Source: an uncultured Clostridia bacterium (GTDB lineage: Bacteria > Bacillota > Clostridia > Christensenellales > Borkfalkiaceae). Taken from it: a stretch of 64,000 nt of DNA. Both the position numbers and the translations under genes were made by a program. The stretch covers positions 113,070-177,069 of the forward strand of contig CALVMD010000002.1 in the NCBI GenBank assembly GCA_944342025.1, written 5' to 3'. The notes beneath the pieces are model-generated. The model ran no database searches. It was given only the letters and a program-made list of their open reading frames with translations, and was not told the origin of the DNA. Shown here one piece after another: positions 48,041 to 52,446 of this stretch. Position 1 is the stretch's first letter. Each line of letters begins with the position of its first letter.

Positions 48041-48116
48041 GGAAGTTTAGCTCAGTTGGGAGAGCATCTGCCTTACAAGCAGGGGGTCATAGGTTCGAGC
48101 CCTATAACTTCCACCA
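48041..48116 (+). tRNA. tRNA-Val (anticodon TAC)
   Basis: Acceptor stem GGAAGTT/AACTTCC, D-loop TAGCTCAGTTGGGAGAGCA, anticodon TAC at 48074-48076, T-arm GGTTCGAGCC and encoded CCA. Confidence 0.98.
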
Positions 48117-48162
48117 ACTTTCGTTTTCAATTACATCGATAAATACAGTGCGGAATGAATAT

Positions 48163-48237
48163 GCGGGAATGGCTCAGGGGTAGAGCGTCACCTTGCCAAG
48201 GTGAATGTCGCGAGTTCGAATCTCGTTTCCCGCTCCA
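48163..48237 (+). tRNA. tRNA-Gly (anticodon GCC)
   Basis: Acceptor GCGGGAA/TTCCCGC, anticodon loop TTGCCAA, T-arm GAGTTCGAATCTC, encoded CCA. Confidence 0.98.
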
Positions 48238-48260
48238 AAAAAATTCCGCACTTATTTTTT

Positions 48261-48335
48261 GGCGCCATAGCCAAGTGGTAAGGCAAGGGTCTGCAAAACC
48301 CTGACTCCCCGGTTCAAATCCGGGTGGCGCCTCCA
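48261..48335 (+). tRNA. tRNA-Cys (anticodon GCA)
   Basis: Acceptor GGCGCCA/TGGCGCC, anticodon loop CTGCAAA, T-arm CGGTTCAAATCCG, discriminator T and encoded CCA. Confidence 0.98.
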
Positions 48336-49086: not shown

Positions 49087-49381
49087 GCCGCTGTGGTGGA
49101 ATTGGCAGACACAAGGGACTTAGATTTGAGCATCGGGACAGGAAACTTTCCGCATGAATCGCGTCAAATTCGGTGGAACTCCCCTATTTCGGGACAATAC
49201 CGAGCGAAGCCCGTTTCGGGAACGTGTAGAGACTTTACGGCGCGTGCCTAAAACCGTTCGGTCATGGCAAAGATAAAGTCCGGACTACAACGTCGGAACT
49301 TGACGGCTATGGCAACATAGAGTAGCGCGAAAATCCCTCGGCGTAAAAACCGTACCGGTCCGAGTCCGGTCAGCGGCACCA
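49087..49381 (+). tRNA. tRNA-Leu (anticodon TAA), interrupted by a group I intron
   Basis: Exon 1 is 49087-49121 and exon 2 is 49330-49381. The acceptor arms GCCGCTG and CAGCGGC pair perfectly. Joining the exons gives the anticodon arm AGGGA-CTTAAAA-TCCCT with anticodon TAA, a long variable arm (CTCGGCGTAAAAACCGTACC, leucine-type) and T-arm GGTCCGAGTCC. CCA is encoded. The intron lies between T34 and A35 of the anticodon, so the gene must be spliced to work. Confidence 0.96.
49122..49329 (+). ncRNA. Group I intron in tRNA-Leu(UAA), 208 nt
   Basis: The intron follows a U (exon end CTT) and ends with G, as group I introns do. P1 can form between exon CTT and intron GAG (49128-49130) with the expected U-G pair at the splice site. 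The core reads AATACCGAGCGAAGCCC, GTAGAGACTTTACGG and GGCAAAGATAAAGTCC, which closely parallels the cyanobacterial tRNA-Leu intron core as I recall it; GACTTT (49231-49236) pairs with AAAGTC (49275-49280) as P7. There is no room for a homing endonuclease. Confidence 0.95.
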
Positions 49382-49444
49382 AAAAACCATGATATATCGG
49401 TAGATTTTCGATCAAAACTGCCGTGTATCATGGTTTTTCTTTTT
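49382..49444 (+). terminator. Terminator of tRNA-Leu
   Basis: AAAAACCATGATA and TATCATGGTTTTT pair across a 31-nt loop region that has an inner hairpin; a T-rich tail follows. Confidence 0.85.
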
Positions 49445-49551: not shown

Positions 49552-50505
49552 TTATGAGCGCCCGCTATACGGCTCGTACACGTAATCGGTCTCGCCGTTT
49601 TCGCCCGTCACCGTACGAACGATGTAGCATTGAGCTTTCTGCCCGCTGCCGACGCGAAGGCGGATGACCTCCTCGCCGCGCACCGTTTCGCGCTCGAAGT
49701 AGAAGCTCTCCGAAACGCCGTTTTTATACGAAACCATCTTCAGTTCCGTCTCGCCCCTTTCCGTTTCGTAAGAGAACGCGCTGCGCTCTACAAGCTGCCT
49801 GTTCTCGTAAACGGAGTAACTGTATTCCTCTTCGAACTCGCCCCCTTCGCTCTCCTGCCCCTGCTCGACGAGCATATAACGGTTTTCGCCGAGGGTGACG
49901 GCAAACTCCGTCTCGCTTTCCGATTCGTTCCCTTCCGTCTCGAAATTGCGCTCGCCGCGCACCGCATAATCGGTACCTTCGACCGTCAGAATCCCTTCGA
50001 TCGCGTAATTTTCCTCCCGTTCGTCGTCAAAATCGAACCAGTCGTCATCGTCGTCATCGTCATGATCGTCGTCAGGAATCGCCGTCTGATTGTAATGCAT
50101 CACATACTGCAAGGTATTGCCCTGTATGTCGCGGTAAGATATAGTCATTTTATGCGCGTACCCCTCTCTGTCCGATGCAGACTCGGTCACGCCGAAGCCG
50201 CCGTCGCTGAGAAGGCTCTCCACGAGCGCCATGTACCTGTCCAATTCGGCAAATTCGTCGTTTTCGGCGGACGTATCTTCGAACGTTTCCGCAAAGCCCT
50301 TAGACGCCGCGAGCGCAGCCGCCTCGCCGCCGTTCATGGAAGAAATGATCATACCCGCCGAAGCGGCGCTGAACCCGTAAACGGATTCGGTGGAATCGAG
50401 GTCATCGAATTTGCCGTTGCCGCCTTTATCCGAGGAGCAAGCGGCGATCCCCAGCGCGAGCGCCAGTGCCAGTGTCAGAACCAGTGCCGTTAACAATTTT
50501 TTCAT
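49552..50505 (-). CDS. Lipoprotein related to the neighbouring anti-sigma ectodomain, poly-Asp tract
   Basis: The 317-residue protein has a lipoprotein signal ending LALGIAAC (Cys23). Its mature part aligns by eye along its length with the extracytoplasmic part of the protein at 51274-52446: ESVYGFSAASAG vs DSFYAYGAASVG, EENYAIEGILTVEGTDY vs EENYAIVGVLLAGGAEY, YSYSVYENRQLVERS vs YAYSVYENGRLIERT, and ETVRGE in both. An internal tract near residue 145 is Asp-rich (DDDHDDDDDDDWFDFDD). ATG with AAGGAGAG upstream. It is divergent from the sigma gene and shares its promoter-like motif. No known domain is recognised. Confidence 0.85.
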   Translation of the reverse strand: MKKLLTALVLTLALALALGIAACSSDKGGNGKFDDLDSTESVYGFSAASAGMIISSMNGGEAAALAASKGFAETFEDTSAENDEFAELDRYMALVESLLSDGGFGVTESASDREGYAHKMTISYRDIQGNTLQYVMHYNQTAIPDDDHDDDDDDDWFDFDDEREENYAIEGILTVEGTDYAVRGERNFETEGNESESETEFAVTLGENRYMLVEQGQESEGGEFEEEYSYSVYENRQLVERSAFSYETERGETELKMVSYKNGVSESFYFERETVRGEEVIRLRVGSGQKAQCYIVRTVTGENGETDYVYEPYSGRS

Positions 50506-50564
50506 CGTCGTACTCTCCTTGTACTCTGTTTTTTCACGGGAGCATCCGGAATTTTCCCGTCTCA

Positions 50565-50598
50565 CTTATAGAACAACCCGAACTATCCTTTTTGTTGG
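50565..50598 (-). promoter_or_regulatory. ECF-type promoter-like motif upstream of the lipoprotein gene
   Basis: Minus strand CCAACAA, nine bases, TTCGGGTTGTTCTATAA. The same layout, CCAACAA-N9-TTCGGATTGTTTATA, lies on the plus strand at 50706-50736 ahead of the sigma gene. It may be a promoter for that sigma factor or a dyad operator (AACAA/TTGTT arms, 15-nt spacing). Confidence 0.6.
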
Positions 50599-50749: not shown

Positions 50750-51277
50750 ATGAAAGACGAAAAGTTGGAGCGGTATGTCGAGGCGCTGCGCACGGGTGAC
50801 GCGGGTGCGTTCGACTACATTTACGAACAGACACACAAGCGTGCTTACTTCACGATCTTATATATCGTGCGCGACAAGATGCACGCCGAAGACGTCTTGC
50901 AAGAGACGTTTGTCAAGGCGGTCTCTTCGATCGGGCAATACCGCGCGGGCACCAATTTTTATGCGTGGCTGAACGCGATCGCCCGCTCGCTCGCGCTCAA
51001 CCACCTGAAAAAATACAGGCGGGAAGTGGCGACCGACTTCGACGAGGATTCTTACAAGTACGGCGTGCAGGAGACCGAGCTTCCGTACCTGTTCGACCTG
51101 GCGGCAAAAATATTGCCCGAAGACGAATATCAGATCGTGATGCTCTGTCAGGTGTCGGGATATAAGCGGCGGGAAGTCGCGGCGATGCTGGGCATGCCGA
51201 TCGCGACGGTGACCTGGAAAAACAATCAGGCGTTGAAAAAGTTGAAAAAAATTCTCGAAAAGGAGGGCAGACCGTGA
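50750..51277 (+). CDS. ECF-family RNA polymerase sigma factor
   Basis: The 175-residue protein has region 2 (about 20-90) with MHAEDVLQETFVKAVSSIGQY and FYAWLNAIARSLALNHLKKY, and region 4 (about 115-170) with the helix-turn-helix SGYKRREVAAMLGMPIATVT. There is no region 1 or 3. ATG with AAGAGG upstream. The stop overlaps the next gene by 4 nt, so it is coupled to its probable anti-sigma factor. It likely drives its own operon and the divergent lipoprotein gene. Confidence 0.93.
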   Translation: MKDEKLERYVEALRTGDAGAFDYIYEQTHKRAYFTILYIVRDKMHAEDVLQETFVKAVSSIGQYRAGTNFYAWLNAIARSLALNHLKKYRREVATDFDEDSYKYGVQETELPYLFDLAAKILPEDEYQIVMLCQVSGYKRREVAAMLGMPIATVTWKNNQALKKLKKILEKEGRP

Positions 51278-52446
51278 AAGACATCAAAAAAATGCTGGCG
51301 GAAGAAGGCAAATCCGTTCTGCCCGACGCCAAAGTAAAGGAAAACATCCGAAAAGAGCTGGGCATCACCGAAACGGAGAGCGCGATCGCCTATGCGCACA
51401 GCGGCGAGGCGGCAGCAAATAAGAAAAGCCGCACCCCGCTGATCGCGGCGTGCGCGGCGCTCGTCGCAGCAGTGCTGTTTCTGAGCATTTTTTTACCGCT
51501 GTTTCTGAACAGAGGGAACGGAAGCCTTACCATCGGCAACAAATTCGAACAGATCACGGGCGCCGATTCCTTTTACGCCTACGGCGCGGCATCCGTCGGG
51601 TCTCTTTTGAGCTCGGAAAACGGCGCTCAGGCGGCGACAGGCTCCGTTTCGAAGTCTTTGTCGAGGACGCGCACTCAGACGGCTGCACAGGCAGACGGCG
51701 CGTCTGACGAGGCACAGATCGAACTTCTCAGCCGATATATGACGCTTGTCGAGGGCCTGCTCGGCGAGGGCGGCATCACGGAGACCGCGATCGGCGGCAA
51801 CGGCGACTACGAATTCGGCATGACCGTGACGTACACCGACCTTTTGGGCGCGCCCGTATCGTACACGATGTATTACGACAAAATTTTCCGCGGAAGCGAG
51901 ACGGACGGCGGCGAACAAGAAGAAAATTACGCGATCGTAGGCGTTTTGCTGGCGGGCGGCGCGGAGTACCCCGTAAAGGGCAATTACGAGACGGAGACCG
52001 AATCGGGCGGCGGCGAGAGCGAAACGGGCAGCGAACTGTATTTCAAGGCATACACGGGCGAAAATTCGTATATCGAAGTAGAGCAGGAGTCTGAAAGCGA
52101 GACCGAAGGAAACGAGAGCGAGGAAGAAAAGGAATACGCCTATTCCGTATACGAAAACGGCCGCCTGATCGAGCGGACGACGGTGGAGTATGAATCGGAA
52201 GAGGGCGAACTGGAACTTGTGATGACCATCGAAAAGGACGGCGAGCGCGAAACGCTGACCTTTTCGGGCGAAACGGTGCGCGGCGAACTGGTGCTGCGCG
52301 TGACGGGCAACATCGGCGGAGAGCGCGTGCGCTTTTCGATCTATGTGCGCGAAGGGCAGTATCATTACGTCTTTGAAGACGGTTCGTCGTCCGATCACGA
52401 CCGCTACGATGACGATGACGACGATGACGATGATGACGACGATTGA
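51274..52446 (+). CDS. Probable membrane anti-sigma factor with acidic ectodomain and poly-Asp tail
   Basis: The 390-residue protein has a cytosolic N-terminal segment of about 52 residues (KKMLAEEGKSVLPDAKVKEN), one membrane helix (about 55-78) and a 310-residue extracytoplasmic domain. The N-terminus lacks the HxxxCxxC zinc motif of ZAS anti-sigma factors. The ectodomain is acidic, resembles the lipoprotein encoded at 49552-50505, and ends in 12 consecutive Asp. The anti-sigma role is inferred from coupling and topology. No named domain is recognised. Confidence 0.8.
   Translation: MKDIKKMLAEEGKSVLPDAKVKENIRKELGITETESAIAYAHSGEAAANKKSRTPLIAACAALVAAVLFLSIFLPLFLNRGNGSLTIGNKFEQITGADSFYAYGAASVGSLLSSENGAQAATGSVSKSLSRTRTQTAAQADGASDEAQIELLSRYMTLVEGLLGEGGITETAIGGNGDYEFGMTVTYTDLLGAPVSYTMYYDKIFRGSETDGGEQEENYAIVGVLLAGGAEYPVKGNYETETESGGGESETGSELYFKAYTGENSYIEVEQESESETEGNESEEEKEYAYSVYENGRLIERTTVEYESEEGELELVMTIEKDGERETLTFSGETVRGELVLRVTGNIGGERVRFSIYVREGQYHYVFEDGSSSDHDRYDDDDDDDDDDDD
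52408..52443 (+). repeat. GAT/GAC run encoding 12 Asp
   Basis: Twelve consecutive GAT or GAC codons, mixed, directly before the stop codon. The mixed codon use suggests selection for Asp rather than simple slippage, though length change is possible. Confidence 0.9.

Follow-up and report, generated by a model that had tools for sequence, protein, structure and literature searches.

Group I introns in bacterial tRNA genes

Group I introns have been described in tRNA genes of cyanobacteria and of alpha- and beta-proteobacteria (PMC4033280), in fMet and Ile2 tRNA genes (PMC8450103), and in tRNA-Leu(UAA) and tRNA-Arg(UCU) genes of the Beggiatoaceae (PMC4853749), and they are reported to hide tRNAs in genomes from metagenomes (PMC8172020). 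Genes of crAss-like phages are also described with introns (PMC7886860). A 2014 review states that all phage introns known until then were in protein genes, despite the many phage tRNA genes, and that there was little evidence of horizontal intron movement among bacterial species (PMC3984707). Among the titles and abstracts that our literature searches on group I introns in tRNA listed, none reports an intron of the type we describe here in tRNA genes of Clostridia.

The intron described here is in the genome of an uncultured Clostridia bacterium, within a stretch of 64,000 nucleotides that was analysed as a whole and that we call the window. The cyanobacterial and plastid trnL type, which we represent by one Anabaena sequence, shares with it the gene, the site between positions 34 and 35, the P1 pairing, and the two-hairpin plan of P9. 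The Azoarcus tRNA-Ile(CAU) intron (IC3) is similar in core and size, but it interrupts another tRNA at another site and has a single P9 hairpin. In the Beggiatoaceae report (PMC4853749), the introns are in the same tRNA outside the cyanobacteria and were missed by annotation, like the window gene, but those hosts are Gammaproteobacteria and the introns are described there as putative group I, with no type or structure given.

A tRNA-Leu(UAA) gene interrupted in the anticodon

We confirmed that the window has a tRNA-Leu(UAA) gene in which a group I intron of 208 nt separates U34 from A35 (Table 1). The full gene reads GCCGCTG...GGGACUU, then the 208 nt of the intron, then AAAAUCCC...CAGCGGCACCA, the last two being the ends of the 3' exon. 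ARAGORN called three tRNAs in the window (Val, Gly, and Cys, 48041-48335) and did not call the interrupted tRNA-Leu, while the joined exons were called as a regular tRNA-Leu(taa) of 87 nt at the default threshold. An earlier sequence-only reading had placed the insert exactly between 34 and 35, after a U and ending in G, and the exon boundaries agree with it. The probable terminator region behind the gene contains a shorter stem (49420-49434).

Table 1. Coordinates of the interrupted gene, of the intron elements, and of stretches at possible attachment sites in other genomes of the genus
Feature	Position	Strand	Basis
tRNA-Leu(UAA), 5' exon, from acceptor stem through U34	49087..49121	+	sequence and exon-joined tRNA call
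P1, exon side, CUU, U34 pairs with G	49119..49121	+	sequence; same in 7/7 genus-group sequences
Group I intron, 208 nt, between U34 and A35	49122..49329	+	covariance-model match
P10 guide UUU, can pair with first AAA of 3' exon	49125..49127	+	sequence; 7/7 genus-group sequences
P1, internal guide side, GAG	49128..49130	+	sequence; same in 7/7 genus-group sequences
P2 hairpin, CGGGA / UUCCG	49134..49152	+	structure alignment
P3, 5' strand, CGCGUC	49160..49165	+	structure alignment
P4-P5, UCGGU / ACCGA around P5 hairpin	49170..49203	+	structure alignment
P7, 5' strand, GACUU, expected guanosine-binding site	49231..49235	+	structure alignment
P3, 3' strand, GGCGCG	49239..49244	+	structure alignment
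P7, 3' strand, AAGUC	49276..49280	+	structure alignment
P9b hairpin, GCAA-type loop, common to viral relatives	49307..49320	+	structure alignment
Terminal G of intron (omega G)	49329..49329	+	sequence
3' exon of tRNA-Leu(UAA), A35 to encoded CCA	49330..49381	+	sequence and exon-joined tRNA call
Probable intrinsic terminator, long hairpin then U run	49382..49444	+	read from sequence
tRNA-Leu(UAA) halves or complete genes at possible attachment sites	L022 1500-1766 (G014); L023 1500-1677 (G005); L026 1490-1680 (G024); L027 1-330 (G025)		
Further tRNA-Leu(UAA) halves or complete genes at possible attachment sites	L021 1-340 (G004); L028 1450-1640 (G028); L363 70-250 (G016)		

The source genome (G000) is a MAG whose 25 contigs add up to 1.57 Mb, with a completeness of 77.9%. 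There are 28 tRNA matches listed in it, and the six longest are Leu(UAG), four Ser, and Tyr. No second tRNA-Leu(UAA) was found in this incomplete MAG, and a search with the joined exons (E <=1e-6) returned only the two halves of the window gene. Because only these halves were found, splicing is probably essential in this organism, and the gene is probably its only tRNA-Leu(UAA), a case that the sequence-only reading had raised as a condition. That reading had also named a spore-forming host, and a spore-former is supported by the Pfam matches within the window to SpoIIE, GerA, Spore_permease, and Spore_GerAC. Elsewhere in the window, two similar-looking proteins with aspartate-rich stretches (49552-50565 and 51274-52446) flank a gene for a sigma-70-type factor (50750-51277).

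Structure of the intron core

The conserved core helices of group I introns, P3 to P8 including P7, are present, and P3, P4, P6, P7, and P8 are paired in all six copies from the genus. The intron ends in G in 6/6 genus genomes. The anticodon-loop site and the core fit the small IC3 type, and we call the intron IC3-like; the 5' strand of P7 is presumably where guanosine binds. None of the listed ORFs of at least 80 aa lies inside the insert, in agreement with the sequence-only reading of a copy without endonuclease, and none of the seven genus-type copies (205-216 nt) has an endonuclease.

The Rfam model RF00028, proposed as a check in the earlier reading, does match 49111-49297, with 35.7 bits and an E value of 1.7e-7 in a 551-nt search, but this is below the gathering score of 50, and a gathering scan of the whole window did not report the family. 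That score is a practical threshold and no defining feature of group I introns. RF00028 was too lossy as a search model over the relatives, missing G000 itself, so we built our own covariance model (R1) from 8 introns including that of the window, which R1 matches by construction. A further model (R2) was made from 18 introns in tRNAs other than Leu, the hosts of some having been judged by eye, and it takes no sequence from the 40 genomes of the genus that we searched; its alignment was fitted to the R1 structure, while its sequences are independent. Over the 64-kb window (E up to 10), R2 gave a single match, at 49120-49329, with 161.4 bits and an E value of 1.6e-47. This bears out the assignment to group I made from the letters, and the P1 (CUU/GAG) and P7 (GACUU/AAGUC) pairings named there are present.

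We also compared the structure with shuffled and displaced controls. In a homologue alignment of 94 rows fitted to the structure, the 91 distinct homologues pair in 94.1% of 4326 pair cells, and in 1133 cells both partners differ, compared with a shuffled mean of 335, with a covariation score of 0.560 against 0.151 shuffled. Sliding the structure by 1-3 columns left 28.5-41.7% of the cells paired. Counted by pair, double-sided changes occur in 38/51, hardly above the shuffled value of 35.3, and 3/500 shuffles reach 38. Four of the five P7 pairs never vary in this set, partly because the search patterns required P7, and this helix is given little weight. When the first 8 sequences were aligned with MAFFT, 92.6% of 390 cells were paired, compared with 86.8% after shuffling and 30-40% after sliding, and both sides change in 9/51 pairs, which 3/500 shuffles reach; the number of pair types there does not exceed that in the shuffles.

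The nearest relatives in the intron set are on viral contigs

In a tree of 99 introns (196 columns, 1000 UFBoot trees), the seven Leu introns of genus type stay together as a clade with 99.5% support. The set was collected by patterns and by a model derived from the window intron, and closer relatives of other shape could be missing from it. Within this set, the nearest relatives of the genus-type introns are on three viral contigs (L304, L263, and L305), again in tRNA-Leu(UAA). The genus-type introns and these three form a clade in 98.9% of the trees, and with L304 alone in 2.9%. L263 and L305 have the same tRNA and intron sequence (302/302 nt), and therefore there are two distinct viral relatives, not three. 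In a run without L304 and L305, the genus clade received 97.9% and its grouping with L263 90.9%.

With one Anabaena and one Azoarcus sequence added, the clade of genus and viral introns stays at 99.2%. The Anabaena sequence is inside it in 0/1000 UFBoot trees, and the Azoarcus sequence groups with the viral L225. The special tie to the cyanobacterial and plastid intron that the sequence-only reading proposed is not shown by this tree with its single Anabaena sequence; the cyanobacterial host is of a different phylum, and the window-type intron is patchy. A scan for introns of cyanobacterial type in the viral contigs found nothing.

L304 is the best R1 match outside the genus (178 bits; the next has 144). 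Its intron lies at 34/35 of Leu(UAA), the same site as in the window, and has a core 77-82% identical to the genus copies, but it is 738 nt long and has a 153-aa ORF that the window copy lacks. This ORF matches the PHROG 'HNH endonuclease' with an E value of 2.3e-37, and Pfam HNH_3 with 3.4e-4, short of the curated cut-off. The L304 stretch has 20 other tRNA genes. Over the 30 exon nt around the junction, with 18 from the end of the 5' exon and 12 from the start of the 3' exon, L304 agrees with G036 in 30/30 positions, with G035, G023, and G027 in 29/30, and with the window and G012 in 28/30. No capsid or terminase was found among 10 proteins tested in the parts of the three viral contigs that were read, whose viral status is that given by the collection.

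A broader pattern matched at least 119 stretches on viral contigs. Among the 80 listed, 33 were assigned to a host tRNA by script, and 16 of these are Leu(UAA) at 34/35. A further Leu(UAA) intron at 34/35 (sites by eye) is in LR756501, the 735-kb record of an uncultured phage, and on one viral contig (L258, 12994-13815) there are two group I introns of the same family within 1 kb, one of them in Arg(UCU). In enterobacterial phages (H3-H18), query positions 78-148 matched inside genes named terminase large subunit in most of the annotated records. In plasmids, about 100 nt of the intron core matched at roughly 77% in 20/20 listed of 1262 matching records (of 72,556); these core matches (20 listed, H21-H40 and others) are mostly enterobacterial, often where no gene is listed, and are probably unannotated group I introns.

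Distribution in the genus and beyond

The Leu(UAA) intron was found in 6/40 genomes of the genus (G000, G012, G023, G027, G035, and G036); the contig L142, with its 206-nt intron, is that of G035. In 6/6 carriers the interrupted gene lies within about 1.5 kb of tRNA-Val/Gly/Cys. ARAGORN found an uninterrupted tRNA-Leu(UAA) in 16 of the 34 non-carriers, which together with the six carriers answers the suggestion that related genomes be compared with and without the intron. Among 13 stretches that we re-read, 5 with partial matches, counted among the 16, hold called tRNA-Leu(UAA) genes, and tRNA-Leu(CAA) was confirmed in 8. G005, G010, G014, and G025 have an uninterrupted anticodon arm beside a contig end or other sequence, and in the remaining non-carrier genomes of the genus we found no tRNA-Leu(UAA).

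Two of the 40 genomes (G020 and G063) have introns in tRNA-Asn(GUU), in three places, one cut by a contig end, and one further match in the genus, in G013, is set aside as weak (16.5 bits). These Asn introns (L007 134-540; L039 1220-1510; L038 1-140) lie between U35 and U36. In L007 there is a 5S rRNA before the gene and a partial 5' part of tRNA-Asn upstream, and in L039 a transposase-like ORF (by eye) is near.

Searches of more than 40 genomes used stricter filters, and the counts are lower bounds. At the family level, the intron was found in 2/101 genomes, both from the genus of the window, and thus in 1/18 genera; the remaining 17 sampled genera gave none, with a filter that can lose weak matches. 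In the order, 8/396 genomes from 7/142 genera have such introns, and the carriers besides the window, assigned partly by eye, comprise six genomes with tRNA-Asn(GUU) introns, in one case spread across two contigs, and a single genome with a tRNA-Lys(CUU) intron. The class gave 8/391 genomes, where the hosts besides the window, judged by eye, are Asn(GUU), Thr(UGU), and Tyr(GUA), with both an Asn and a Tyr intron in two genomes. The phylum gave 5/398, three of them weak (L360-L362, 27-54 bits), and L359 looks like an intron in a tRNA with a CAU anticodon.

A pattern scan of genome contigs matched at least 118 stretches, of which 80 were listed and 77 re-found by script, and the host tRNAs were assigned with a scorer that uses all tRNA arms. 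Among these listed stretches, a host was assigned in 51/77, with 45 passing a stricter score: Leu(UAA) in 24 (21 at 34/35 and 3 at 33/34), Thr(UGU) in 12, Arg(CCU) in 9, Leu(CAA) in 2, and Ser, Ala, Lys, and Met in 1 each. Several of the 26/77 without a script assignment are, by eye, Asn(GUU) or ORF-bearing Leu(UAA). Two of the Leu cases among the matches listed are genus-type Clostridia (L130 and L142), and the record titles, taken as given for MAGs, also include Gammaproteobacteria, Bacteroidetes, Acidobacteria, and Bacilli. By eye, an HNH-type ORF lies within the Leu(UAA) intron of three Bacilli MAGs (L076, L083, and L124), and the frame in L124 looks broken. The sequence-only reading placed such introns mainly in cyanobacteria, plastids, and proteobacteria; this framing is too narrow, given the related introns in several other phyla and on viral contigs.

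Lateral arrival or ancient inheritance

Closely related genomes of the genus differ in whether they have the intron. G036, with the intron, and G063, without the Leu intron, have identical exons (89/89 nt) and are sisters in a dnaA tree (38 sequences from 37 genomes) with a support of 100. G023, with the intron, and G020, without the Leu intron, are dnaA sisters with a support of 99, and their exons agree in 80/89 positions. The six carriers are scattered over the tree and do not fall into a single tip clade. With two dnaA copies, G012 cannot be placed with certainty and may be a mixed bin. Among the six carriers, identity is 0.865-0.966 in the intron versus 0.762-0.885 in dnaA, which fits either lateral spread or slow ribozyme evolution with losses.

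The nearest relatives found here for the window intron are at the same tRNA site on viral contigs, one of them with an endonuclease, which suggests that the intron arrived from outside and is no ancient heirloom. We give a probability of about 0.7 to the reading that the intron is self-splicing and IC3-like, came in laterally, probably through homing linked to phages, and afterwards lost its endonuclease; the splicing and the route are both deduced from sequence comparison. The earlier view that the intron is probably vertically kept is not supported, given its presence in six of 40 genus genomes and in none of the other sampled genera of the family, and given its viral kin.

An intron of the same self-splicing kind that was ancestral to the genus, was precisely lost many times, and was captured from bacteria by viruses is in our judgment unlikely. 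The scatter of the six carriers over the dnaA tree is in line with such an ancestry, as are the single site, the single locus, and the lack of an endonuclease. The sampled relatives speak against it, since the other 17 genera of the family gave no such intron, and the seven other carriers in the order have theirs in Asn or Lys tRNAs, which belong to another lineage where this was tested. In the genus itself, nearly half of the non-carriers have an uninterrupted gene, and therefore many precise losses would be needed.

We consider it very improbable that the gene is dead or slowly decaying, with an intron that no longer splices and another tRNA that reads UUA. The core helices pair in every genus copy and the joined exons fold normally, and the joined-exon search in G000, G012, G023, G027, and G035 gave only the two halves of the interrupted gene, along with tRNA-Leu(CAA) in G012, G023, and G027. 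What favors decay is the T loop of the window tRNA (49359-49365), TCCGAGT, which has C55 instead of the nearly universal U, and the short variable arm, both common to G012 and L130 (the four remaining carriers have TTCGA or TTCAA), together with a second, uninterrupted tRNA-Leu(UAA) on another contig of G036 and the incompleteness of the source MAG.

A jump within the lineage from the tRNA-Asn(GUU) introns of G020 and G063, which have the same core and are in the same genus, is rejected on the tree and hardly credible, given that these group with clostridial Asn/Lys/Thr/Tyr introns and the viral L189 (Lys) in a separate clade (95.5% UFBoot), away from the genus Leu clade.

Proposed splicing and route of entry

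If the intron splices as its structure predicts, the guide GAG would pair in the pre-tRNA with CUU, the last three bases of the exon, placing a U.G pair at the cut. The core from P3 to P9 would then bind guanosine in P7 and cut after U34, and the free U34 would attack behind the terminal G, so that U34 and A35 are joined and mature tRNA-Leu(UAA) results. The steps beyond the P1 and P10 pairing would follow established group I chemistry.

For the lateral arrival that we favor, the intron would have entered the genus by homing of a relative with an HNH endonuclease. Such a donor would travel in tRNA-Leu(UAA) genes of phages and pass from phage to bacterium, and the chromosomal copies would later have lost the ORF.

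In several genomes of the genus we also observed truncated 5' halves of tRNA-Leu(UAA) that end just past the anticodon loop, with other sequence behind them that is shared by G014 and G005. Elsewhere, a complete gene whose acceptor stem differs lies behind a stretch of this kind (Table 1). Both arrangements look like putative integrative elements with the same anticodon loop as attachment site.

More tentatively, and at somewhat less than even odds, phages with large tRNA arrays may carry tRNA introns, with an HNH intron homing from phage tRNA-Leu(UAA) genes into the chromosome and losing its ORF there. The loop also has the look of an attachment site in the genus; an intron in it would then divide that site and could protect the essential gene against integrative elements, with the tRNA kept through splicing.

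Implications

With this gene, Clostridia join the hosts of the best-known intron site in bacterial tRNA. The viral tRNA introns bear on both statements of the 2014 review (PMC3984707), on the place of phage introns and on movement among species. A candidate donor type is given by the viral introns in tRNA-Leu(UAA), one of which encodes an HNH enzyme, and the sister genomes having identical exons with and without the intron are an available pair. An interrupted tRNA gene can escape a standard tRNA finder, and in this way an essential tRNA can look absent from a genome.
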